A DNA stretch of 64,000 bases, from the NCBI GenBank assembly GCA_029959195.1, contig CP114119.1, positions 2,108,001-2,172,000 on the forward strand. Direction: 5' to 3'. A program made the translations under genes and the position numbers. Shown here piece after piece: positions 2,078 through 39,076 of this stretch (position 1 is its first letter; each line of letters begins with the position of its first letter). Origin of the DNA: Dictyophora rubrovolvata. Taxonomy: Eukaryota; Basidiomycota; Agaricomycetes; Phallales; Phallaceae. The notes beneath the pieces are model-generated. The model worked only from the letters and a program-made list of their open reading frames with translations, was not told the DNA's origin and did no database searches.

Positions 2078-3206
2078 GGCGAATGCAAGTATGTGTGTAG
2101 TGAAGGCAAGAGAAGAAATTCGGATATTATCCAACGGAGTTTGAAAAGAATGGCATTGTTGACAACTTAGGCAATAATTTTCCAAGATTTCTTCTATTGT
2201 GTTTTCAGCGCCTCTTACGAAGCAAACTAACGTGACCGTACGCGCCTAGGAAATATTCGCGAACAGCAAGATTAAACTTTTTTTAAGGAAAAGTGCATGC
2301 AAAGTTCAATGTAAATAATGAGGAAGTCTTTTATGGGAATATAACAAAGAAGGGAAGGAAGTTTTGAAGCAACCACAAGTGAAGCGTTTAAATTTCAGAC
2401 CGCCTATTTTTGGAGCTCTTGACACCAAGTACAAGCTGGTACAAGACCCTGTACTTACAGGGAACCTCCTCCGGCTAGAGATCAAGGACTTCAAACACTA
2501 AAATCATGAAAATGTGAGATTTTGACTCAAGTGGTCTAAATTTCCCAAGAGAAGCTTTAGCTGAATAACTTATTCACCTTCTTGCGACGGGAAAAAAACA
2601 AGAGCCCACAGGGGATCGAACTTAAGACAGTCTGAAAGAGATAATTTCACACATCCCACTGATTTACCAGACCACACCGTTAACGTGATCTGCCGTCCAT
2701 ATAACGTATAATTAGAGGGTGATCGAAAAGAGCCTCGGATGCGTCTCATTGGTTGACGACATGCGCGGAAATTTGGTTACTCGATTTAGTATCGAGCGCC
2801 TAAACTAGATCTAGACAGCTGGAAATACTTTGTAGGGACAGTATCCTAATCTTTGATGGTATTCAGGCGCATTTACATCATTCCCAAAATATACAAAAAG
2901 CAGCTGGAGATGCGTTTAATTCAATGAGCGCAGGACAAACCGAGCGCGTTCCCTACGATATGTATTTTATACTATTGATACATTAATGAAATAATGATAC
3001 ATTGGGGGTATAGAGTATATGGGTAAATTAACCGAAATTTTAACTAGGTTGTAAATGAAATTAGTGACGGACGTCAGGTATCTGCAAGCACATTGAATGT
3101 CAGCAACGTCAACAGCAAAGCGAGGGCACAAAAGCAAATGAAAACAGTGTTCGAAGGATCAAGTAATTTGGCAAACTCACAAAACGACAATCAGCATCTG
3201 AACATG
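2078..3206. other. Intergenic DNA between HD2 and HD1a
   Basis: About 1.1 kb separates the HD2 start from the HD1a stop. Apart from a tRNA-like relic at about 2590-2700, I see no gene in it. It must hold the HD2 promoter (right of 2077) and the HD1a 3' end. The short open frame at 2306-2494 has no supporting features. Confidence 0.6.
2590..2700 (-). repeat. tRNA-derived relic, SINE-like
   Basis: On the minus strand there is an A-box-like run (TGGTCTGGTAAATCAGTGG) followed about 35 bases later by a B-box-like run (AGTTCGATCCC), then CTGTGGGC and a T-rich stretch. This is the internal promoter layout of tRNA genes and of tRNA-derived SINEs. The two acceptor-stem halves do not pair well, so a working tRNA is unlikely. 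It sits between HD2 and HD1a. Confidence 0.3.
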
Positions 3207-5611
3207 TTACTCTTTCTCTAATTCTTCTAGCTCTCTTTCGAGCGCAGCCTTCTTTTCCTCGAGTTCACGCCGTTTATACTCCTTTCGTAAAGCCTTTTCA
3301 ACCATCGCTAAATCTTGTCCGGTCAGATCAAGGCTTGCTTCCTTCTTATTATCCAATACCGACAGCACACCGTCGGGCAACGGCGCAACGTCCTGCGTTG
3401 CTGGTGTTGGTGGAATCGACGTTGAAGTACATGTCGGCGATACGGACGCCAATCGTGATGTTTCGAAAGAATTGTTAGAGATTGATACTGATATTGGCAT
3501 TTGAGGTAGAGGTTGCATCGAGTAATTGAACTCGAAACCGTCCGACGTTTGCATTGGAGTTGGGCTGGACATTAGGTCACTCAAATCAAGAGTGTGGCCT
3601 CCAACGACATCCGCTGTCCCGGGTAACGAAATTTCGGTTTGCGGCCACAGACTTGTTAAACTGAATGATGATGAGCCAACGTCAACCTGGAGATCTGGTA
3701 TTGAGTGTGAAGCTAGCAGTTGCTCGAGTGCATAGGGCGATTGTGCCGTGGGTGAATCGGAACCGGATTGAGGGCTTTCGATGCAGGAATCGACGCCCGT
3801 GGGCGATGATGTTAGCGAGTTAACTGCTGCCATTTCGGACGCTACATCATTGGAAGTAATCATCTGGAATAATTCCGAAAAGTCAGACAATGCATTCTCG
3901 CTGCCAGTAATGGATTCGACGTTCATTCCCAGTCCTCCTGTGAGGTCAAAGGAATCGAGTGGGTTGGACCAGTCAAAAACGCCTACTTCAAGCGGAACTG
4001 AAGTATCCGGTGGTGTAATTTCCACAGGCTGTGGTTCTTCACTTCCTAACGTAAGTAGCGAATCGAAATCCACAAGCGAAAAATTCGATCGCCGATGACT
4101 TGGTACGGTTAAGGTTGAAGAAGAGGTCATAAAATCGGGGACTGGTCCAGCATTGGGAGAAGCGGTATTTTGCGTAATCTGAGTGAAATCTGAGCGGATA
4201 CGTTTGGCTGTTGGGGTTGTATCAACGTCGAGGCTCGCGTCATATGATCGTTTCTGACCACGGGTGGGTATAATGGGAGGATCGGTAGAGGAAGACATCT
4301 TGAAATTAAACGAGTCATCAAATGGGAAGGGCAACTCAAAAGCTGCGGTGGAGGATGAAACAGAGGTATCGGCATTAGACCTAAGTAATAGAAATCAGGA
4401 GAGCTTCCTATGGTGTTTTTATCGGCGTACCTTAATCGTTTGCGAGGCCGCTCTTCATCTCCACTATCAGACCATGATAACGAAGGAACGCGACTATCAG
4501 AGAAGTCTGAGGCAAAAGAGGATGCTGGAGAAGAGCCTCTAAGACGGAGTAAATCTTTATCTGCGAGCAAACTCTTGCGTTTGCCGTCGAAAACGGATTT
4601 TGATTCAAACGCATATTCGTCATCTTCAATAGTACTCCCCGAGGAGGTGAAAGAAGATAGAGAAGCGGTACGACTCAAACTATTTTGACTATCCTGATCT
4701 CGTTGTATCCTTCGTGGAGTTTTATCGACCTTGCATAAAGTCTCGGCCTGGTTCTTCTTTTTTACTTGCCGATTCTTCAAATCACCCTCGCGATGTTTTT
4801 GGGATGAAATGGTGTCGACTAGTTGATCCAAGTCCTCAATCCATGCGCTCGTCCGTGTCTTCTTCTCGTACATTGTCTCGACATTCTTCTTCATTTCCAT
4901 GAACTCGGCAACAATTTGAGGATCAACAGGTCGGTTAGGATCTTCTTTAACGAAAATTCTTTTGGAAATGTCAATCATTTCCTCGCGATTTCCTTTGCAC
5001 CGGTTTTTGAGGATTTCAGCCCAGCCACACCGTCTGCGCGCGTTGGTAAACCAATTCGAGACGCTGGTGAGCGTAACGCAAGAACTACTGCTCATGTCAA
5101 CAATAGCTTGTTTTTCTTCACGAGATGGATAGGGACTGTGGATATTTGCGACGAGGTACCTATAGGCGTGTTCGATGAATTCGGGTAGAGGACCAGGATC
5201 CGATATGGGATCTGTGTCAGGTGCCGACATTGTATCTGATGAAGAAATACCGACGGGAGATGATTTTGGGTGTCGACGCAGTTGAAGTGACGGCTTTGAA
5301 GGGCGTGTGGGGTCTGAAAGAGGGCTATACTCATCCTCGTCTCCCAACACTGTTTCAAAATCTACTAAAACGGTAGAGGAGAACGAAGCGGTAGCATTAT
5401 CCAGTTCCATGAAACCTTCAGTCATCACCCTGATATTACCCATGGCAAACGCAATCATGTTGAAGGTATTGTCCCTGTGAATGTCATGGCTCTGTGCTTC
5501 CTGTTGACAACGGTTGAAATCGCGTTTGAAGGTTGTCCACGAATTGGAACGAGTAGCTTCTATAAACCTTCGCTGGAGGAGAAATTCTTTTTGCTTTTCG
5601 TTGGCGGGCAT
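3207..5611 (-). CDS. HD1: HD1-class homeodomain mating-type transcription factor, copy a
   Basis: This nuclear regulator should form heterodimers with an HD2 protein. Exons are complement(3207..4380, 4431..5611), about 784 residues; the 50-bp intron falls in the basic run RKRLR. Residues 1-140 are the variable N-terminus that sets partner choice in this family. A TALE-type homeodomain spans about 141-196 and ends in WFTNARRR. A bipartite basic signal (KRSYDASLD...AKRIR) follows, then a long acidic, Ser/Thr-rich probable activation region. The C-terminus is a charged helix (YKRRELEEKKAALERELEEL). It is divergent from HD1b, 157 bp away. The segment 4622-5110 is nearly identical to HD1b, whereas the N-terminus is unrelated to it. 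It lies on the same strand as HD2, unlike the usual divergent HD1/HD2 pair. Confidence 0.95.
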
Positions 5612-5768
5612 TGGGGGTATAGAATATAGTGATGATTGTAGACGGTGAAGTCCCTGTGAACAATGGACTGGCAGTATTTCTTTTATGCTGAAGTAAGCAA
5701 GTCCAGGCGCCCGCTTCCCCCACTACCACAACTACCATAGCTGCTAAAGCTCCCTTCGAAAGTCGACG
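5612..5768. promoter_or_regulatory. Shared bidirectional promoter of HD1a and HD1b
   Basis: Only 157 bp lie between the two HD1 start codons, so both promoters and both 5' leaders must fit here. The left part is AT-rich (around 5615-5640) and the middle is pyrimidine-rich on the plus strand (around 5710-5730). No HD-heterodimer site of the GATG-N9-ACA type was found by eye. Confidence 0.6.
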
Positions 5769-8185
5769 ATGGCACTTGTTGAACTACCCCCAAATTCCGA
5801 TTTTCTTGCCAAAGCTTTACACATAGAAGCTGAGATTCTCAATGCGTCTTCGCAGCATGACTTAGACGACGTTCGTAGTCAATGGCTAATTATCGAACAA
5901 CAACTTCAACTTGCCTTGAAAGGCGGAAAATTCCCATTGCTGATGAAGAACCAAATGTCCTGTATCTCACAAAGGATTCATCTTCTCTTTCAAAATTTCT
6001 CCGATATTCTGTCCAAAACTCTGGATTTGGAGCCAAACTACCTCGAGGTCCTCGATGACCTAAACCTTACGCGGGACCCGAGATCCTCTAATTCTTGGTC
6101 CCCCAAACCCTTCCTTCAATCGTTAGGACATCCCAAATCTTTGCCGATGATACCTCCACAAGATCTTGATTCCGCGTATGATCCGACACCTTTACCCGAG
6201 TTCATTGAACATGCCTATAGATATTTCGTCGCGAATATTTACAATCCCTATCCATCCCGAGAAGAGAAACAAGCTATTGTTGACATGAGCAGTAGTTCTT
6301 GCGTCACACTCACCAGCGTCTCGAATTGGTTTACCAACGCGCGCAGACGGTGTGGCTGGGCTGAAATCCTCAAAAACCGGTGCAAAGGAAATCGCGAGGA
6401 AATGATTGACATTTCCAAAAGAATTTTCGTTAAAGAAGATCCTAACCGACCTGTTGATCCTCAAATTGTTGCCGAGTTCATGGAAATGAAGAAGAATGTC
6501 GAGACAATGTACGAGAAGAAGACACGGACGAGCGCATGGATTGAGGACTTGGATCAACTAGTCGACACCATTTCATCCCAAAAACATCGCGAGGGTGATT
6601 TGAAGAATCGGCAAGTAAAAAAGAAGAACCAGGCCGAGATTTTATGCAAGGTCGATAAAACTCCACGAAGGATACAACGAGATCAGGATAGTCAAAATAG
6701 TTTGAGTCGTACCGCTTCTCTATCTTCTTTCACCTCCTCGGGGAGTACTATTGAAGATGATGAATATGCGTTCGAATCGAAACCTCTTTTCAATGGCAAA
6801 CGCAAGAGTTTGCTTGAGGATCACAGTTTGCTCCATCTCAGAGGCTCTTCTCCGGCCTCGTCTTTATCATCCTTCTCTTTTGTCTCGGACCTCTCTAATA
6901 GTCGCGTTCCTTCGTTATCATGGTCTGATAGTGGAGATGAAGAACGACCTCATAAACGACCAAGGTATGTCAACAACAACACTATAAGTTCTTTTGATCT
7001 CGATTGCTTAGGTCTAATGCTGATACCTCTGTTTCATCCTCCCCGGTACCTTCTGAACTGGCATTCCCACTTGATGATTCGCTCCAGTTCAACCCATCTT
7101 CCCCCACCAATCCCCTTATTATACCCACCCGTGGTCAGAAACGATCATATGACACAAGCCTCGACATTGATGCAACTCCAATAGCTAAACGTATCCGTTC
7201 TGATTTCACTCAAATTGCACAAGATATTGATACCGCTTCCCCCAATACCGGACCAGTCTCCGATTTTATGTCCTCCTCAATAGCATCAAGTCATCGGCGA
7301 TCGAGTTTTCCGCTTGTAGATTTCGATTCGCTGCTTACATTAGGAACTGAAGAGCCACAGCCTGTGGAAATTGCACCGCCGGATACCTCAATTCCGCTTG
7401 AAGTAGACGTTTTTGACTGGTCCAATCCACTGGATTCCTTCGATTTCACAGGACTGGGAATGAACGTCGAATCCATTACTGGCAGCCAGAATGCATTGTC
7501 TGACTTTTCGGGATTATTTCAGATGATTACTTCTACTGATGTAGCGTCCGAAATGGCAGCAGATAACTCGATAACATCATCATCGCCAGATAAGACGGGC
7601 GTCGATGTTGGCATCGAAAATCCCCAAACTGGCTCCGATTCACTCTATGCACTTGAGCACCCATCACCCTCACATTCAATACCAGATCTCCAGGTTGACT
7701 TATCATCATTCAATTTGACAAGTCTATGGCCGCAAAGTGAAATTTCATTCCCCGGGACAGCGGATGTCCACACTCTCGATTTGAATGGCCTAATATCCAG
7801 CCCAATTCCAATGCAAACATTGGACAGTTTCGAGTTCGATTACTCGACGCAACCTCCGGGTCAAATGCCACAATCAGTACCAATCTTAAACAATCACAAT
7901 CCTGCCGAAACATCGCGATTGGCGTCCGTATCTCCGACATGTGCTTCGACGTCGGTTCCACCGACACCAGCAACGCAGGACGTTGCGCCGTTGCCCGACG
8001 GTGTGCTGTTAGCATCGGATAAAAAGAAGGATGTAAACATTGATCTCACTGGACAAGATTTAGCGATGGTCGAAAAGGCTTTACGAAAGGAGTATAAACG
8101 GCGTGAACTCGAGGAAAAGAAGGCCGCGCTAGAAAGGGAACGTGCGAGATTAGAAGAATTAGAGAGGGAATTGGAAGATGATTAG
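5769..8185 (+). CDS. HD1: HD1-class homeodomain mating-type transcription factor, copy b
   Basis: This is the second HD1 protein, about 789 residues from exons 5769..6964 and 7012..8185, with the same intron position as HD1a (47 bp, in KRPR). Its N-terminal 140 residues are unrelated to HD1a and are predicted to be helical. The homeodomain occupies the same residues, about 141-196, and ends in WFTNARRR. The basic signal, acidic Ser-rich region and C-terminal charged helix (REKKA-type repeats ending LEELERELEDD) are shared with copy a but differ at roughly a fifth to a quarter of positions. By contrast, 6270-6760 differs from HD1a at only about three bases. The gene is transcribed away from HD2, so HD2 and HD1b keep the classical divergent orientation with HD1a lying between them. 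Confidence 0.95.
6270..6760 (+). repeat. Inverted near-identical tract shared with 4622-5110 (gene conversion)
   Basis: About 490 bp from homeodomain helix 2 to past the linker match the reverse complement of 4622-5110 with about three differences by eye. Just outside, for example the codons for the first half of the homeodomain, there are many silent changes. Such an abrupt step from diverged to near-identical sequence is the mark of recent gene conversion between inverted copies. Confidence 0.85.
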
Positions 8186-8490
8186 ATGTTGATAAATCTT
8201 TGGTTGGTATTTCCATTCAAGTGTCAAACATTATGCTGATGTATGTATGTTCAGATTGTTTTGTTTTGCTTTCATGTTTTCGTTCTGCTATTCACATTGC
8301 TATTCCTGATCAATCATCATACGTATCTAACCTACCACCTAATCTATTGTGCAGGCTATGGACATCTCTGATCTTCACGTGTTTTTCACACACATACGTT
8401 ATACCCCAGCATGTATTATCATTATTCATGTGATGTATTAATAGAAAAATGCATAACAAGGTTAAAAACCAGAGTCTGTGCGTGCTCATA
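8186..8490. other. HD1b 3' flank
   Basis: About 300 bp of AT-rich sequence between the HD1b stop and the Tc1 element. It probably holds the HD1b 3' untranslated region. I see no gene. The string tcaaacattatg near 8225 resembles tcaaacataatg just after the HD1 relic at 20069. Confidence 0.5.
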
Positions 8491-10079
8491 CAGTGACGCG
8501 CAAAACCGTACATGCATTCGTCACATCTGAAATGTATCTTAAACATCTTTATCAATAAAATAGTAATAATCCTGAAAATATTTGAGTGTATACCTGAATA
8601 TGTTGGGAATGGGTTTGCTTAAGGGAACTTGTGCTCAGTGTCGCCCGTTCGTCCATGGTATATAAATGTGTTGGATGATATCACATGTACAGTTTTGCAC
8701 GTGGTGAAGGATGGAAAGTAAAATAAGGTTTGCATCGTTTTTTTGCGTATAAGGTTTGGGTCATGTGACTATATACAAGTAGATATATATTATTAGGAAC
8801 TTTTGAGGCAGAAATCAGCAAGAAATTGAGCATGGTCAAGCTTCCCCAGGAAAGGATAGATAGTGTCCTCCTCCTCCTCGATTTGGGGGCATCGGTCAGG
8901 AAAATAGTCCAAACCATTAATGTTAGTCAGGGGACAGTGACTAATATTAGAAAAGAATATCGAAATGACTTGCCCCGAGCAGCTGGAGGCCGTCCCCGAT
9001 CACTTTCTCCTCATGATATCCGGCATGCAATCCGTTATCTCACCTCTGGACAGGCAACTACGGCAGTAGATGTCCAAAAAATTTTACAATCATCGAGTGA
9101 AGTGCCTTTCCATACTAGTACACTGCGGCAATGCCTGAAAAAGGAAGGTCTTAAGTCAACCACAAAGGTCAAACAGCCACTTCTTTCTGCCCGGCATAGG
9201 AGGGAGAGGCTTGACTGGGCTATTAAGCACCAATTTTGGACGATTGAGGACTGGAAACGGGTGGTGTGGTCTGATGAAACAAAAATAAATCATTTTGGGT
9301 GTGACAGACGCAAATGGGTTTGGAAACGGCCAGGGGAAGGCTTAAATGATCGAGTGGTTGACAAGACTGTGAAACATGGTGGTGGTAGTATCATGGTGTG
9401 GGGGTGTTTCTGTTGGGATGGGATAGGTCAGGCGGGCAAGATAGATGGAAGAATGGATGCAGATTTATACTGCAAAATATTGGAGCAATATCTGAGGGGA
9501 TCTCTAAAGAAACTCAGGAAAAAAGTCCGGGACATCCTCTTCCAGCAGGACAATGACCCAAAACACACCTCCAAAAAGGCCAAAAACTGGTTCGAAGACA
9601 ACAGGATTGAAGTTATGAAATGGCCTGCACAATCACCAGACATGAATCCGATAGAACACCTTTGGAGTATTGTAAAACGGCGGCTTGGTGAATATGACTG
9701 GGCCCCAACCAGCATACAAGAGCTCTCAGAAAGAGTTTCAAATGTTTGGTCTGGAATAGAAGTTGGAGTTTGTCAGAATTTGATTGAAAGTATGCCTAGA
9801 CGAGTAGAGGCACTTCTAAAAGCCAAAGGTGGCTACACAAAATACTAGATTTGTATATTCTCATAATGTGAGCAAAACTGTACACCTGAGCTTACCATGA
9901 AGTCAGGCTAATCTACTGTAAACAAGTGATTATTATTCTAGCAGATATTAATGAAATTTGTAGTCAATATATACAACTAATCACACAAATATTTTGACAA
10001 TTTATAAGAATTTATTGAGCTCTCTATTTAAGTTGCGCGCGAAATATTACATTTGCGTGTACAGTTTTGCGCGTCACTG
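8491..10079 (+). mobile_element. Tc1-type DNA transposon, complete with TIRs and TA duplication
   Basis: The element is 1589 bp and is bounded by terminal inverted repeats. The outer 26 bases (left end starts cagtgacgcgcaaaac) match at 24 positions. It is flanked by TA at 8489-8490 and 10080-10081, the target duplication expected for Tc1/mariner elements. It carries one intron-free transposase gene on the plus strand. Ends and coding region both look intact, which suggests a young insertion. It lies about 300 bp downstream of HD1b. Confidence 0.95.
8832..9848 (+). CDS. Tc1 family transposase (DD34E)
   Basis: This 338-residue protein catalyses cut-and-paste transposition of the surrounding element. 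Residues 5-45 form a paired-like helix-turn-helix DNA-binding region, followed by a GGRPRS hook-like motif near residue 52. The catalytic triad is D148 (VVWSDETK), D240 (FQQDNDPKH) and E275 (PIEHLW). Exactly 34 residues separate the second D and the E, which defines the DD34E Tc1 group. I chose the ATG at 8832 because the open frame upstream holds only a TTG. There are no internal stops or introns, and the length is normal for the family. It is probably functional, judged by sequence only. Confidence 0.95.
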   Translation: MVKLPQERIDSVLLLLDLGASVRKIVQTINVSQGTVTNIRKEYRNDLPRAAGGRPRSLSPHDIRHAIRYLTSGQATTAVDVQKILQSSSEVPFHTSTLRQCLKKEGLKSTTKVKQPLLSARHRRERLDWAIKHQFWTIEDWKRVVWSDETKINHFGCDRRKWVWKRPGEGLNDRVVDKTVKHGGGSIMVWGCFCWDGIGQAGKIDGRMDADLYCKILEQYLRGSLKKLRKKVRDILFQQDNDPKHTSKKAKNWFEDNRIEVMKWPAQSPDMNPIEHLWSIVKRRLGEYDWAPTSIQELSERVSNVWSGIEVGVCQNLIESMPRRVEALLKAKGGYTKY

Positions 10080-10139
10080 TATGTTCGGTAAGTATTCACC
10101 TCTGTTAGGCATCACGCAAGTGTAAGTATCATATAGAAT

Positions 10140-10668: not shown

Positions 10669-11397
10669 TGTCGCAAAAATTGAAAGGGGCTTATAATTCA
10701 AATCGGGTTTATTTACCCAACATGAAATTAATTTTGCATTTATTTTCAATTTCACGATGTATAGAGCTTAGTTTTCTCCCCTGTACCTTTATTTTCAGGT
10801 CCCTTCTCCAATGAATGCCCTGCAACTTCGCCTGAGTTGTGATCGGCTAAAAACTCATTCATTGGCTAATCTCTGAACATCTTGAATCGCACAAAAAAGA
10901 GGATGGTCTGTGCGCAAGATCAGGTTCCCATATAAACTTGGGACTTCGTTCATTTTCAAGTTGGTCATGTTGCCCCACTTAGTGGTATTCATCATATGTA
11001 CAGTAGTAGTAGTCTTGGTCTTAGTCTTAGCCTTAGTCTTAGTCTTAGTAGTCTTAGTAGTAGCAGCAGCAGTAGATTAGTCTAGTAGCAGTGGTAATTA
11101 CACTCTTTCATAGCGTATATAGACTATGTACATATATATGTTCAATATAATTTTTTTGAAAGCTACTCTGACTTGTGATTCTGTTTGAAAAAAAACAAAG
11201 TTAAAAAAAACAGGAGTAAGATGATTTACAAAAGTAAATGTTACAATGTATAAAAAACCACTGATTTAGTTTATAAACATGGCTGGCGGTTTATTGGAGC
11301 CTTGAAATGATTATAAACCAATTATAAACCCCCTCGGCGTCTGACAACCTTTTTTAGGTTTATAATGCATTATAATCCTCTAAGGATTTTTGCGACA
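10669..11397. mobile_element. Non-coding inverted-repeat element (MITE-like) inside the F-box gene
   Basis: Both ends share tgtcgcaaaaat in inverted orientation, followed by an imperfect continuation (ttgaaaggggcttataat against ccttagaggattataat). The body is AT-rich with TTATAA motifs and a CTTAGT/AGTAGC microsatellite at 11000-11090. It holds no coding sequence. I could not define a clear target duplication, so the superfamily is unknown. Confidence 0.7.
11008..11090. repeat. Microsatellite (cttagt)n and (agtagc)n
   Basis: Tandem runs based on gtcttagtctta grade into agtagcagcag inside the MITE-like element. This is simple sequence with no coding role seen. Confidence 0.8.
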
Positions 11398-13515
11398 CGT
11401 TCCTCGACATAGTGATTATCGTCGCATCGTTTGCGCAGAGTCAGCGACACACGTCTGGGAACACCTTTTGATAACTCTCAGTGCCTGCTCCTATGTTAGG
11501 TATCTGAATGCTACAACCACACGCAGTCTTCGGACCAATATTCCACGATTATGCCCGATCGATTGGGATTTTGCCGTCAACAGTAGTCTGCACTTGAACT
11601 TCGGAACGCCGCTCCCTCTTGTCGTTGACAAAGATGCTTTTCTTCAGGCCCTTTCAAAAATGGTCAACTTGAAAGTATTAGCATTCCAGACAGCGGGTCG
11701 AGGTCAAATTCCCATCGGGGCTATTTCGGAGGCGATTGAAAAGGCGGGTTGTGAATTAGAGGAAATCGACGTGTATTTCCAATTTATAAACGAAGAGGAA
11801 GAAACTCTTGATCTGGTGGATGAAGGAAACATATTCGTTCGGTATTTTGAAGAAAATAAATACTCAGAGAATCCGAGGGGATTTTCGGCAAGTTGGAAAC
11901 TTTCCTGTTATGCATATTAATTTATTTATTCACTTTGTGATAGCTATTATATGATTATCTGCCCTCACTTCGAAAATATTTTATTTATGCCGATACTTTC
12001 CCTGACAGCAACGTTTTCCTTCAGATGCTTTTGAATGCACCCAATTTAACTCACATGAATGTGACTCATGTATGCGCAGCTGTCTTTCTTTTAGGCTATT
12101 GGCCGAATCTTCAACACCTTGTAGTCTATCCTTGCGATACCCTTGAAGACGATCCCTTCGGACGCGATTATACACCAGGCATACGGATGTTCTTCAGTCG
12201 TCATTCCAAACTGATTACTTTGCGGGCCAACTACGTTCTCATTCCCGGCTGGGCTATTGAATCAGATAGTTTCCTTCCGAATCTCAGATCCCTTGGAATT
12301 ACACGCCTTACTTCTGTGGCCCCCATGATGACTTTTCATATTGGTACACGCCTCACTCATGTGGACATGAATACTGCGCTGTGTTCGTACCTCAAAGACC
12401 ATGGGATCGTGCTATACAACCTGGAAAGTTGTCAATATTGGCACGCCGACCCCAGGGCATCGACTCAAGATCTCGTCGATATAATTCCTAATATCAAGAA
12501 ACTTTACATGCTCTTTGGATACTACCAAGGGAGCAATCGACAGTTGACCGCCAACGAGGTACGCTGCAATAGGACTTGCTATCACGTTCATTGAAAAGGA
12601 ACCATAATATTCACCTAGATCATGGAACGTGTCGCTCCTTTTAGCGGTCTCAAGAGTCTGCGTACCCTCATAGGACTTTTCGACACAATTGACATAGATG
12701 ATCACCTCGAATTTATATACAGCATGCCCAGTCTCGTGTATACTCGAGTCCGAGACAAGAAGCTCTCTTCTGGACGATCACTTTCACGTTTAGAGCGGGA
12801 TAATATCGCCGGGGTGGTGAGATATGAGCCCATGAATGTTCTCCCTGACGAATGTGACATAGGCTCTTGGGGAGGATTCTATAGACGTGATATACATACC
12901 TCGGCCGAGTTTATTGGGCAACCTTTGGAATCTGGATTGCTAGTACTGAGAATATGATTTGGTTTAGGAAGGAATTTAAGAATGGATTTCGGTTGCCTTG
13001 GCTCAGTTGGTGATTTGTGTCATGCAGACGATTATAGGCACGGCACCAACGTCCTGTAGAGCTCGCGGGCTCCCATGTTCCTCGTCGTGCCTTTTGCTCC
13101 CATCATCATCGTAAACGTTACGTCCTTTACCATCAATCCATTTCCGTCGTTCGAATTTCGTTCCCACCATCCCACACAGATCCTCACTGCATTAGTCGAC
13201 CGTAGTTATGCATTCATCTTGAATACTACTGTCTTGTGTCACTCTGAGAGATGGCGTCCAAATCCGCCGAGCAAGGAGCCCGCCCACCCGGCAGTCTTAT
13301 ACCGCGTTCCGAGCACAACTCGACTCCCCCAACCTTAATCACAGACATCATCGAGGAGCGAGACGAGACAGGACGGTGCAATTTGTACATATTTACACGC
13401 TGATCACAGGGCAACTATTCGCTGGGCCTACCAAATTAAGCGCACCTATCGTGTTCCATTTCATGGGAGCGTTTGTAGTATACGCCAGGCCACAACTTGA
13501 CTCTGCACCTCGGGT

Positions 13516-15108
13516 ATGATGAAGCTGCCTGTTGACATTCTTATAGAAATCATCGAATGTGTCGACCACCCCAGAGATTTATTATCCCTTGCACTGACAG
13601 CGCGCGCCTTACATGCCGAGATCGTTCCTCGACATATTGACTATCGTCGCATTGTTTGTTGGGTATCCTATGACCATGTCTGGGAACATCTTTTGGCTCA
13701 TAACGCCTGTTCCCGCATTAGATATTTAGACATCACATGCATGTCGTGTCGTGCCTGGACAGGGGTGGAGATTCCACGAATGTGCAAAATCAGCTCGAGT
13801 TCGAAAACGATGTCTGTCGCCACGGTCGGCAGCCACAATATTGAAGTTTTTCTTCGGGCGCTCTCAAAAATGACTAACTTGAAAGTGCTCAAGTTCGATG
13901 CAACGGGTCGACGCCTTTGCCTTATATCTGAGGCAATCGGAAAAGCAAACTGTGTACGTGATCTAGTAGAGTTGGACACGTGTGTCGAGTTGCCAAGGAA
14001 AGGAGGAGCAATTGATCAGTATTTCGAAGTGAATAAAATCTCAACAAATAGAGGGCAATCCCCGGTAAGTCGGAATTTGGTACGGAAATGAAAATTTGTT
14101 CATTTTGTGATTTAGTTATTTTATGATTATCTATACTCCCTTCGAAAATATACTATCCGATGCGAAGTTCCCGGTCGTGGCACCTTTCTTCTCCAAATGC
14201 TTTTAAATGCACCCAATTTAACCCATATGAACGTATGCTCTTTACCCTCACGTACATTTCTTTTAGGTTATTGGCCAAATCTTCAACACCTCGTGCTTCC
14301 TTATCTCGGTGAATTCCAAGGAGATGATACGGGGAAGAGCTATACATATTATCTACGGACATTTTTATGCCGTCACTCAAAACTCATTACTTTCTCGGCT
14401 GAAAGGGCTCTCAGACCGGGTTGGGCTACTGAATGGGATAATTTCCTTCCGAATCTCAAATCCCTTGAATTCACCTCTTATTCTTCTCCAAATGTCCCTA
14501 TCATACCGACCCGCATCGCAGAACGCCTTACCCACTTGCGAATGTCCGCTGTGTTGCATTCGGTTCTTAAAGACCGTGGAATAGTTCTATTTAATCTGGA
14601 ATCTTGCGTATATTGGGACGCCGACCTTGAAGCATCGGTTAGAGACCTTGTCGCTGTAATTCCCAATGTCCAAAAACTTCACATTCGCTTTCAGTTTATC
14701 AAAAGGGGAATTTTTCGCTCCCCAGAAACGATAACCACTAACGAGGTATGTCGTAACAGCACGAAGCTTGACTCAATCGCAATGTTCTCATGCCGGGATC
14801 ACATTAATGCACTACACTAGACTGTGGGGTGTCTTCCCTTTTTTGCTAAATTCCAGTATCTACGCGTCCTCTCGGGAGCTTTCAACGGTGACATATCTGT
14901 CGATGATAATCCTTTCCCCGAACTACTATACGAATTCCCCAGTCTTTCGTATATTTGGGCGAAGTGGAACGGAAAATACACTCCTGAATGTTTACGTTTA
15001 GAGCGAGACAACGTTGCTCGAATGACGAGATTTGAGGCTGCAAGTGGCCTTGCCCAGGACGAGTGTGATATAGAGTCTTGGGGGGGATTTTACAGATGTA
15101 ATCCGTGA
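13516..15108 (+). CDS. F-box protein, intact tandem paralogue
   Basis: The protein starts MMKLPVDILIEIIECVDHPRD, a typical F-box, and likely binds Skp1 to bring a target to an SCF ubiquitin ligase. Exon 1 is 13516..14064. The middle exon runs from about 14195 to the GT at about 14744. Exon 3 is 14821..15108, ending in DECDIESWGGFYRCNP. The middle acceptor is unclear: the gene at 10558 has ttcag before ATGCTTTTGAATGC, but this copy has ttctccaa at the same place, so another acceptor (perhaps aag near 14165) must be used or the gene is mildly damaged. The body has repeated Leu spacing but no named domain. It belongs to the large F-box expansions common in mushrooms. Confidence 0.75.
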
Positions 15109-33377: not shown

Positions 33378-35530
33378 AGGAAATGAAAGGTGAAAGAACA
33401 AGCTACATTTCTTAAATGCACCGTGCAGGATATGCTATGAATAGATAGTAAAGGACAGGACGGCACCATAAGTGAGGGATCAGTTCTGACCGACTTGAAC
33501 CCTGTTCCCACGCTTTGCGCTGCGGCCGCAACACTGCGTCCTCTCCATGGCCATGGTTATGATGTAAGTTCAATGCTGTGTACGTAGCTTGGCTTGGTGT
33601 TGCAAAACAACTAATTTGATTGATGTTTGTGTTTGTTTTTTATCAAAATGAAAGCGCGTTACAATTGAATTGCAGGGTATCACTGCCGTGTCCGTACGAC
33701 ATCGATCCACGCCTTTTCAGCTCGTTCTAGACGACTGTTGAATGAAACCCTAGATGAAGCATGCCACATTACTCCAACCTGAAGTATAATTATCCAACTG
33801 AGCATGTAATTGTGTGGCAGCCCGGAACAAATTTGTCCGCAGTCCACTCCAATCGAATCTATAAACAATCTAGTATGTAAACCCATATGATCTTTCTCAG
33901 TCCTAAGAAAGCGGAGAAAGCGTCCTGCAAACTTCAATATGAGCTCTTGGTGAACTTACCGAATGACGAATCTTTTCCGCAGTGTTATACACTGCAATGT
34001 TCGCAAAAATAAAAAATTTGTCTCCAAGATGCCAGCCGTATTTGTTGGTATATTACTATTTATATACCCGTCCAACCAAGTCAAAGTAGCCGTCGACGAT
34101 GTTACGGACGTTGACAAAACATCGGTGGCACTTGTGACTTGGTGCCCAATGAGGTAAATTTCGTTGAAGTATCAAACGTAGGCATCACACAAATTTCTCT
34201 TTTCTGAATGTAAGCATACTATGCATAAATAAAATCAATGTGCTAATACTGTAAGTCTGCGCAGGTGTCACAGAGCAAGTAAAAGAGAAATGAGTGAGAC
34301 CGAATGAGATCCTCAGACTCTAGTTCGACGAACTTTGTGACATTTTTGAAATGACCCTTACTACACTACATAAACCATTACGACTACATAAACCCTCCCG
34401 ACATGGCTACACGGTTAACTAGTGGAACGGGGGAGAGGGCAAGAAGGGTGTCTCTATCAGATCTAGCTATCGCTGTATGTACACTCACACGTCGACACTA
34501 GGGATGTTAGCCTATTTCATGCAAGGTTGGAATTAAGAAAGATGGGGATTACATGAAGGTTTGTTGCAGATACTTGGCGGTGTTTTCTTCAGCAGTTCCT
34601 TCAAGCTGTCCGTGGCTCCAAGGCTACAAGTCGCCTGAAAAATCTCTCGAGCTGCGACATCCCTCATCAACTGTGAGTGCATCGTATTACCAGGAGCCGG
34701 ATTGCTCAAAAGGGTCCCATCCAGTATACAGTCATTGGCGACGGCGTTGCAGCTTGAAGTAGCGAGAAGTTGACCTCACTCTTATCCTTATTCCTTTTTA
34801 GTCTTTTTATCGTTTCGTACCCTGTGATCTCGCTTCTTTTTACTCTCGACTCCACCAACGGACATCTACCATTCTTGAGTAGCAAAGAGCCTAGAAAGAC
34901 AGGCTGATAGCAGCATTTCCCCGGGGATTTTGGGTGGAGCAAAAAGCCAGAATCCATGTACACGCTGCTCATGGATGAGAAACAAGCCGGGAAAGGGGGC
35001 ATGATGGTGGTCATGGTCTAGGGCGATAGCCTTGCTGTATAGAAATCAAGCCAATAGTGATGGTGGCTTGGGGACATAAGCAGGCCGTTTCATGGTTCAT
35101 GTCGCACCGGCTTGACTCTGCGCGGGGTTTTCTTTAAGTGTTGCCCACTGATTTTTAATTAGAAATGTTATGATTGCTATAACCAGTGAAGATTCGCAGC
35201 TTCAGATTCAACTCTGGGTATGATATGACAGTGTTCTGTGAGGCCAGGACCACATATCACGCAATACTTCCGCCTGTTCGGATTTGAGCTCTTTCATCCA
35301 GACCAGTGCTGAGTGCGGTCGTGACGGACGGTTGCGAAATCGGGTGTTCCTGAAAACCAAAACCAAACGGTGGTCCATTTGTTGGAAGTAGGAGCGGAAA
35401 GGCTTGTAGTATTTGATTTCCAAATTAAGGTAGCGAACGTAAAGGTCTTATACCATGTCTTGGGCGGTGCAAGGGCGGTGACAAATATTGCTGACAAAGC
35501 CTTCGAGGTCTTCTCGTATCTTCACCGTTT
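33378..35530. other. Gene-poor stretch upstream of SLA2 and ARMT1
   Basis: About 2.1 kb. It holds the left arm of an inverted repeat at 34563-35030 and the promoters of SLA2 and ARMT1. A minus-strand open frame at 33680-33937 is unsupported. Confidence 0.5.
34563..35030 (+). repeat. Left arm of an imperfect inverted repeat around ARMT1
   Basis: This stretch matches the reverse complement of 38075-38525 along most of its length, roughly three quarters identical by eye. Shared anchors include ggtgttttcttcagcagttc, gtcgcctgaaaaatc and ccaccaacggacatct. Both arms contain a short decayed coding-like stretch, but I cannot name its origin. Confidence 0.75.
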
Positions 35531-37818: not shown

Positions 37819-39076
37819 GTATTTGGAATTAATGTTTGTTAGCGCCACACAGTGGCGAGCGTTTTCTCCTTTTCCTATTTCTGACACCTGTCCGCAAAGA
37901 TAGCTATGTAAATTGAAATTATTAGACACAAGTGTTTTAGAACCAGGGCAGTGGTCCACTCGAAAAGTTCTGAATTTCTAGAACCCTCTTTCGCAAAAGT
38001 CTACCACGACCGCGTTCAAATATATCAATTATTCCAATGTCCATCGCGTGTTGCTAAATTTCTATCACGGGAATGCTATAGCACTAGACCCTGACCATCG
38101 TCTTCCCTCTTTTCCCGGGTTATTTCTTATTCATGAGCAGCGCGTACATGGAGCCCGGCCTTTTGCTCCAGGGAAATCCTGAACTCTTTCGATTTTTTTT
38201 CTAAATCGTTTCTGTCATAGCGGTGTGGGTGATGTCACTATCGGCCTATCTTTCTGGGCTCCTTGCTACTCATGAATGGCAGATGTCCGTTGGTGGAGGA
38301 TGAGGCCAACCTCTCGCTACTTCAAGCAGCAATGCCGTCGCCAATGACCGTATACCGGATGGGACTCTTTGAGCGATCCCGCTCCCGGCAATAGTTGATG
38401 ATGTCGCTCAAGGGATTTTTCAGGCGACTTGGAAGTTTGGAACCTCGGAGCCAAGGAAAGCTTATGCACGGGACACCTCTTTGGAAGGAACTGCTGAAGA
38501 AAACACCGCAAACTATCTGCAATTATTCGACTAAATCCTAACCGGCCACTGTAACGCGATGTTTTTTTTTTAATATTGACGATCGTTTCTTCTGCCCTAG
38601 AACAAGCGCGAACATCATTTCCTGACTACTTTGAAGTGACATGTGAGATCAACCGAGATACGTATATGCCGTTCAAAGGTCTGAATCATGCGTACATACT
38701 ACCATAGTGCTCCCGAAAAATTGAAGGAGGATGTCATCCGTCTTGAAAGTATTTTTATCTAACCACTGAATGTTTCGATTATGTATATACAACTGGAGAT
38801 ATTTTCAGCGCGTATTTTGACGATGTAATTATACAAACATATGTAACAAACGATAAAGCACGAGAAGGCAATACAAAGAAGGGATATAAAAAAGATCTGA
38901 GTGGTATAAGTATACGTGACAAGCAAAAAAGGAAGCAAAATGAAGGTGAAGGAGAGCGATAAAGCAAAGTAAATATGCGTAACGTCGACGAAAACTACAA
39001 TAAAAAAAACTTAATAAAAAATGATCAAAAAAAAAAAAAGAGAATAAAAAGAATAGTCGAAAACATAACGAGCAAT
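37819..39076. other. Intergenic DNA right of ARMT1
   Basis: About 1.25 kb that includes the right inverted-repeat arm (38075-38525). A poly-A-rich stretch lies near 39000-39045. No gene is supported. Confidence 0.55.
38075..38525 (-). repeat. Right arm of the imperfect inverted repeat around ARMT1
   Basis: Reverse-complement partner of 34563-35030. The arm reads, on the minus strand, from tgcagatagtttgcggtg through aaatcccttgagcgacatc to gtcagggtctagtgc. The arms are about 3 kb apart. Confidence 0.75.

Follow-up and report, generated by a model that had tools for sequence, protein, structure and literature searches.

Two head-to-head HD1 genes with different N-termini and a shared body beside one HD2 gene in a mating-type haplotype of Dictyophora rubrovolvata

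Introduction

HD1 duplications have been reported in Pleurotus ostreatus PC15, PC80, SS5, CCMSSC00389 and 595 (PMC10739230, PMC12387193, PMC13108863; these and the other sources cited below are represented here by parts of their text). In PC80, hd1.1 and hd1.2 lie head-to-head at a locus with one hd2 and a third hd1, all three hd1 genes are transcribed, mip lies upstream of hd1.1, and hd2 is followed by beta-fg (PMC12387193). By one of two conflicting reports, PC15 contains two hd1 genes which are oppositely transcribed from a common promoter region, together with an hd2 (PMC10739230). Here we describe the homeodomain (HD) mating-type locus located at the left end of a 64,000-nt stretch of Dictyophora rubrovolvata DNA (contig CP114119.1, positions 2,108,001 to 2,172,000; hereafter the window). 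The locus holds an HD or matA mating-type haplotype of two HD1 genes (HD1a and HD1b) and one HD2 gene, all of which are intact. On balance, we favour the view that both HD1 genes are working genes with distinct partner-choice N-termini and a shared body, held in cis to one HD2. How several specificities can be present in one mating locus without self-fertility is an open problem in the field.

Results

The genes are arranged in the order HD2 (minus strand), HD1a (minus) and HD1b (plus). HD1a (3207–5611, minus; 784 aa) and HD1b (5769–8185, plus; 789 aa) contain a single intron each (4430–4381 and 6965–7011, respectively), both introns share one aligned site, and both proteins possess a TALE-type homeodomain. 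The Homeobox_KN domain (PF05920) matches residues 153–194 in each protein, with E values of 2.1e-10 for HD1a and 8.6e-11 for HD1b; the initial annotation, which had placed the homeodomain at the same residue numbers in both, is exact on this point. The third helix reads WFTNAR in both proteins and fits the TALE/KN-type WFxNxR of basidiomycete HD1 proteins. The head-to-head arrangement described in that annotation is also confirmed, with two intact genes transcribed outward, start codons separated by 157 bp and stop codons at positions 3207 and 8185.

The HD2 gene (487–2077, minus) encodes 477 aa in our splice model, in which the start codon is tentative and introns are placed at 1639–1592, 1477–1428 (GC-AG) and 1193–1135. 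With this one GC-AG intron included in the model, residues 139–191 match the Homeodomain family PF00046 (E 3.3e-12), and the recognition helix WFQNRR fits the typical HD2 homeodomain pattern WFxNRR. In the same model, the GC-AG intron (1428–1477) splits the HD2 homeodomain, and WFQNRR is left unread unless this intron is spliced.

A canonical divergent HD1/HD2 pair is absent from the locus, as the upstream neighbour of HD2 is the 3′ end of HD1a, while HD1b is directed away from HD2 with its start 3.7 kb off. A single HD2 gene was found by tblastn in the window, and the multi-sublocus type of Coprinopsis cinerea, where each HD1 has its own HD2, is not seen here. Searches by tblastn to E 10 gave only short weak matches, and nothing in the window convincingly represents a relic of another HD2 or of a third HD1 gene. 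The earlier remark that only one HD2 lies nearby therefore holds for the window, which is what the HD2 count covers and which ends 486 bp beyond the HD2 stop codon.

The bodies of the two HD1 genes form the arms of an inverted repeat. The left arm (HD1a body; 3190–5191, minus) and the right arm (HD1b body; 6189–8193, plus) show 85.1% DNA identity over 2050 alignment columns, far above chance. In the body proteins, counted from HD1a residue 139, 538 of the 632 aligned residues are identical (85%), and in the coding sequence the aligned codons are ~81% identical overall and ~89% identical in the body. Homology of the two proteins outside their N-termini, which had been called clear, is borne out by this alignment, though divergence is uneven along the body, a near-identical tract (described below) lying between more divergent parts. 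Nonsynonymous divergence (dN) is 0.035 and synonymous divergence (dS) 0.48 for codons 139–202 (dN/dS ~0.07), against 0.107 and 0.325 for codons 346–784 (dN/dS ~0.33). Thirteen gaps are present in the arm DNA alignment. Twelve of these are in coding sequence and all 12 are multiples of three, so that both frames are kept; the 13th, of 3 nt, is intronic. This indel pattern, together with dN below dS, indicates that both reading frames have been maintained for most of the divergence. Basidiomycete HD1 mating-type proteins are expected to carry a bipartite nuclear localization signal C-terminal to the homeodomain. In this region, basic motifs recognized by a loose pattern only are located at residues 437–438 (KR) and 453–456 (KRIR) of HD1a and at residues 442–443 (KR) and 458–461 (KRIR) of HD1b.

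The N-termini present a different picture. The N-terminal module of HD1a (5297–5611, minus; residues 1 to ~105) is without clear similarity to HD1b, whose own module occupies 5769–6104 (plus; residues 1 to ~112). In tblastn, HD1a becomes alignable from residue 106, to HD1b DNA from position 6105. The local alignment score of residues 1–120 is 33, as compared to 26.3 ± 4.4 for shuffled sequences, and was matched by 165 of 2000 shuffles. In C. cinerea and Schizophyllum commune, the HD1 region reported to confer specificity comprises ca. 110–120 aa (PMC8305134). The divergent stretch of HD1a and HD1b is about as long, and its variability fits such a region.

Within the shared body, a tract of codons 181–330 (4622–5071, minus, in HD1a; 6309–6758, plus, in HD1b) is identical at 449 of 450 nt, against an identity of 85.8% at the 1446 other aligned positions of the body. 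Allowing no more than one mismatch, the longest run measures 452 nt, and the largest obtained among 10000 codon shuffles measures 153. Codons 201–320 offer 73.1 synonymous sites and show zero synonymous differences. Strong purifying selection is ruled out as the cause of the tract: since the synonymous sites are identical as well, constraint on the protein fails to explain it. Included in the tract are the last part of the homeodomain, with the recognition helix, and 136 codons past residue 194. From the pattern of identity, we interpret it as the product of recent gene conversion between HD1 sequences, a feature which was absent from the initial annotation and is new here. Exchange between alleles, before the two HD1 copies met in cis, is also an option.

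The 157-bp region between the HD1 start codons (5612–5768) may act as a shared divergent promoter. When this gap was compared with the rest of the window, only a chance-level 17-mer match was found apart from a 20-bp repeat described below. Similarity above shuffles was detected neither between the two halves of the gap nor between the gap and the 323 bp upstream of HD2, and no similarity was found upstream of the HD1 genes.

Downstream of the stop codons the two genes are again related. The 3′ flank of HD1a (2924–3206, minus), in which the outer part (2924–2999) is the clear one, is homologous to the 3′ flank of HD1b (8186–8489, plus), which extends to about the start of a Tc1-like element. 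Over 400 nt the flanks score 192.5 as compared to 125.7 ± 9.8, a value reached by none of 1000 shuffles and none of 120 other stretches of the window. Similarity is strong in 2900–2999 (0 of 1000 shuffles) and disappears in 2800–2899 (198 of 1000). On the HD1b side, the local flank alignment reaches position 8502, ~13 bp inside the end of the Tc1-like element. Homology of ~300 bp in the 3′ flanks implies that a genomic segment was copied.

The Tc1/mariner-like element itself (8489–10081) contains a 359-aa transposase frame (HTH_Tnp_Tc3_2, DDE_3) and inverted ends (8487–8605 and 9965–10083) which are 68.9% identical over 119 columns. It lies ~304 bp past the HD1b stop codon, near the place where the similarity to the HD1a flank ends. 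Homology beyond the element was not found, the scores being matched by 941 and 700 of 1000 shuffles.

HD1a is bracketed by a near-perfect 20-bp direct repeat with one mismatch, the copies of which are 2.6 kb apart. One copy (3000–3019, plus) is located 187 bp past the HD1a stop codon and the other (5609–5628, plus) contains the HD1a start codon. The repeat consensus had no match with three or fewer mismatches in 100 shuffles of the window. None of 60 shuffled gaps contained a 20-mer within two mismatches of the 7 kb around the locus, while the real gap contains one, with a single mismatch. Arithmetically, deletion of one repeat unit (2609 bp) would produce a divergent HD2/HD1b pair whose start codons lie 1082 bp apart. 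A simple insertion of HD1a with a 20-bp target-site duplication was considered and not adopted, as the similarity to the HD1b flank runs past the 3′ copy of the repeat. Given the strong similarity at 2900–2999, the copied segment must reach beyond the repeat, of which the 5′ copy was probably derived from the 3′ one.

The window has a GC content of 43.8%. Scans for RNA families at gathering score and for tRNAs gave no hits in the window and lent no support to the impression that a tRNA-like short interspersed element lies between HD2 and HD1a. Two related tandem genes (67.6% alike in DNA over 695 columns) are present at 11384–15105, the second of which has a weak F-box-like match below the cut-off (E 2.8e-4). 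Pfam matches between 15995 and 58586 comprise SNARE, glycerol-3-phosphate dehydrogenase, GMC oxidoreductase, I/LWEQ and ANTH (Sla2-like), ARMT1-like, class II tRNA synthetase, aminotransferase and amino acid permease. Pieces of another inverted repeat (61–243 columns, 72–90% identity) are located ~3 kb apart at 34564–35046 and 38058–38522.

Discussion

The anatomy of the locus, the conservation of both frames and the conversion tract can be read directly from the DNA. As to their meaning, two HD1 specificities in cis seem the likeliest interpretation, because the divergent stretch matches the specificity region in length and the proteins are split into a variable and a conserved part in the manner of Flammulina HD1 alleles. 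Different specificities in cis had also been proposed in the initial annotation. The divergent N-termini and shared body on one sequence agree with that proposal, whereas the rarity it implied was overstated in view of P. ostreatus.

It seems plausible that duplication or insertion placed an HD1 gene carrying another N-terminal partner-choice domain, in inverted orientation, between HD2 and HD1b as the resident HD1, and that both copies were then retained as functional genes. HD1a would be the likely extra gene, since HD1b retains the canonical direction away from HD2. If both genes are expressed, each HD1 protein would present its own N-terminal dimerisation domain to the HD2 proteins of the mate's nucleus, and both would bring the same body, with its DNA-binding helix, motifs resembling nuclear localization signals and C-terminal region. 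In a self-incompatible strain, the HD2 in cis would be a partner of neither HD1a nor HD1b; in a haplotype that joins two HD1 genes to one HD2, the rule of no pairing within a haplotype must cover both HD1 proteins. The N-termini could remain distinct through a lack of enough common sequence for conversion and through balancing selection, which may favour their difference, and the bodies may have been partly homogenised through gene conversion.

Several points weigh against this interpretation. Further HD genes may be present to the left of the window edge. The N-termini are not demonstrably independent, because the global score of residues 1–120 was matched by just 7 of 2000 shuffles, and this faint similarity suggests a possible trace of common origin. 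Residues 1–140 had been called unrelated at first; the near-unalignable start stands, but its extent is ~1–105 and such a trace may be present in it. Helices predicted by AlphaFold in the N-terminus of HD1b (residues 9–24, 29–51 and 57–83), and the helical N-terminal module predicted for HD1a, are of low confidence, the models having been made from exon-1 proteins only with a two-sequence alignment and having a mean predicted local distance difference test score of ~41. The inner 187 nt of the 3′ flanks are weakly similar (55 of 1000 shuffles). Among the precedents, a later report of two HD2 genes in P. ostreatus PC15 (PMC13108863) weakens that case, since PC15, if this number is correct, may be no more than a haplotype with two pairs. 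With the reports on PC15 in conflict over HD2 number, PC80 offers the stronger precedent.

The arrangement could also have originated by loss, if two divergent HD1/HD2 pairs lost their inner HD2 genes. This origin is compatible with two functional specificities in cis, and among the alternatives it is the one we would take most seriously, while still considering it unlikely. In Agaricus bisporus, footprints of two HD subloci can be seen, a pair having lost one of its HD genes (PMC8305134), C. cinerea loci contain several pairs (stated in PMC12387193), and PC15 would be a further multi-pair case by the report of two HD2 genes in it (PMC13108863). However, tblastn revealed no relic of an HD2 gene, be it in the 157-bp gap or in the rest of the window, the 20-bp direct repeat brackets HD1a, and the 85% DNA identity of the bodies along with the related 3′ flanks would better suit a duplicated HD1 or two HD1 alleles than paralogous pairs of old standing.

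Somewhat less probable is that one of the HD1 genes is redundant or idle, that is, its protein is still sound but contributes no functional specificity, a status also proposed for HD1.3 of Hypsizygus marmoreus. Expression of HD1.3 was not detectable (PMC8686365); additional HD1 genes can therefore be idle, which is a further point against two working genes here, and HD1 copy number varies among P. ostreatus haplotypes (PMC12387193, PMC13108863). On the other hand, the 12 of 12 coding indels in frame and a dN lower than dS in the C-terminal part indicate that both copies have been constrained, and transcription of every hd1 gene in PC80 (PMC12387193) also speaks against an idle copy.

Self-compatibility, with HD1a pairing with the HD2 in cis and A-regulated development proceeding without a mate, appears improbable. 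The N-terminus of HD1a, if it came from another haplotype, would not have been selected to avoid this HD2. However, P. ostreatus PC15, which also has an extra HD1, is described as an ordinary monokaryon of a tetrapolar species, compatible in mating with PC9.

An assembly artefact, in which HD1a and HD1b from different nuclei of a dikaryon were joined, is unlikely, and we give it very little weight. The two genes do diverge in the way of Flammulina HD1 alleles, with a different N-terminus and the rest conserved (PMC5100862), and misassigned reads could in principle yield the near-identical 450-nt tract. Inversions between mating types are known, and A. bisporus var. burnettii has one of 140 kb (PMC8305134), so the inverted orientation alone would be compatible with two haplotypes. 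However, except for one copy of the 20-bp repeat, 2.6 kb away from its counterpart, the 157-bp junction offers no shared sequence for a false join. Moreover, a head-to-head HD1 layout does occur, since it is seen in the chromosome-level assembly of monokaryotic P. ostreatus PC80 (PMC12387193) and SS5 is said to resemble that layout (PMC13108863).

Equally remote is the idea that a 1-kb core (both partner-choice ends and the shared promoter) is framed by the inverted bodies acting as recombination arms. Repeated conversion, and perhaps crossing over that inverts the core, would then keep the bodies interchangeable and allow HD1 specificities to be swapped or built, in a way that recalls the mating-type switches by inverted repeats in some yeasts; the tract attests exchange between the two sequences without showing flipping of the core or exchange in cis.

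Among the closest known systems is P. ostreatus PC80, which likewise has two head-to-head HD1 genes and an HD2 at one locus, compared here without regard to hd2 strand; PC80 differs in having a third hd1 (PMC12387193). No MIP gene was found beside HD1b, which is followed by the Tc1-like element, no M3 peptidase was found among the 30 open reading frames (ORFs) scanned of 102 downstream ORFs of at least 75 aa, and the MIP motif [FL][HY]E[FMLAY]GHA was not found in six frames. The missing MIP is not decisive for the relationship, because in Lentinula edodes MIP lies at least 47 kb from the HD locus (PMC8686365).

Inonotus hispidus MAT-A, with one HD1/HD2 pair and a single extra HD1, has the same gene numbers as found here, but a head-to-head HD1 pair and a shared body go unmentioned in the parts of the source considered (PMC12858565). 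In H. marmoreus, HD1 genes likewise outnumber HD2 genes (three versus two) and an additional HD1 lies in the middle; it differs in having two HD1/HD2 pairs, the extra gene being the HD1.3 discussed above (PMC8686365). The HD1 alleles of Flammulina velutipes HD-b differ N-terminally and are conserved over the other four-fifths, as are HD1a and HD1b, but they are alleles of different strains, whereas HD1a and HD1b are both present on one sequence (PMC5100862).

The conversion tract of the present locus contrasts a freely diverging part with an exchanged part inside one gene pair. Badrane and May are said to have described in 1999 a 'divergence-homogenization duality' for Coprinus cinereus b1, in which the specificity part diverges and the rest is homogenised, reportedly among population alleles of one gene and not between two copies in cis. 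Among the papers listed, and in those parts of them that were considered, none was noticed that deals with gene conversion between HD1 copies in cis. HD1 coding sequences of P. ostreatus PC9, PC15 and PC80 are mostly 62–73% identical (PMC12387193), in comparison to ~81% over all aligned codons here. The locus is another member of the reported HD1-duplication layout, distinguished by the greater similarity of its bodies and by a sharp conversion tract.

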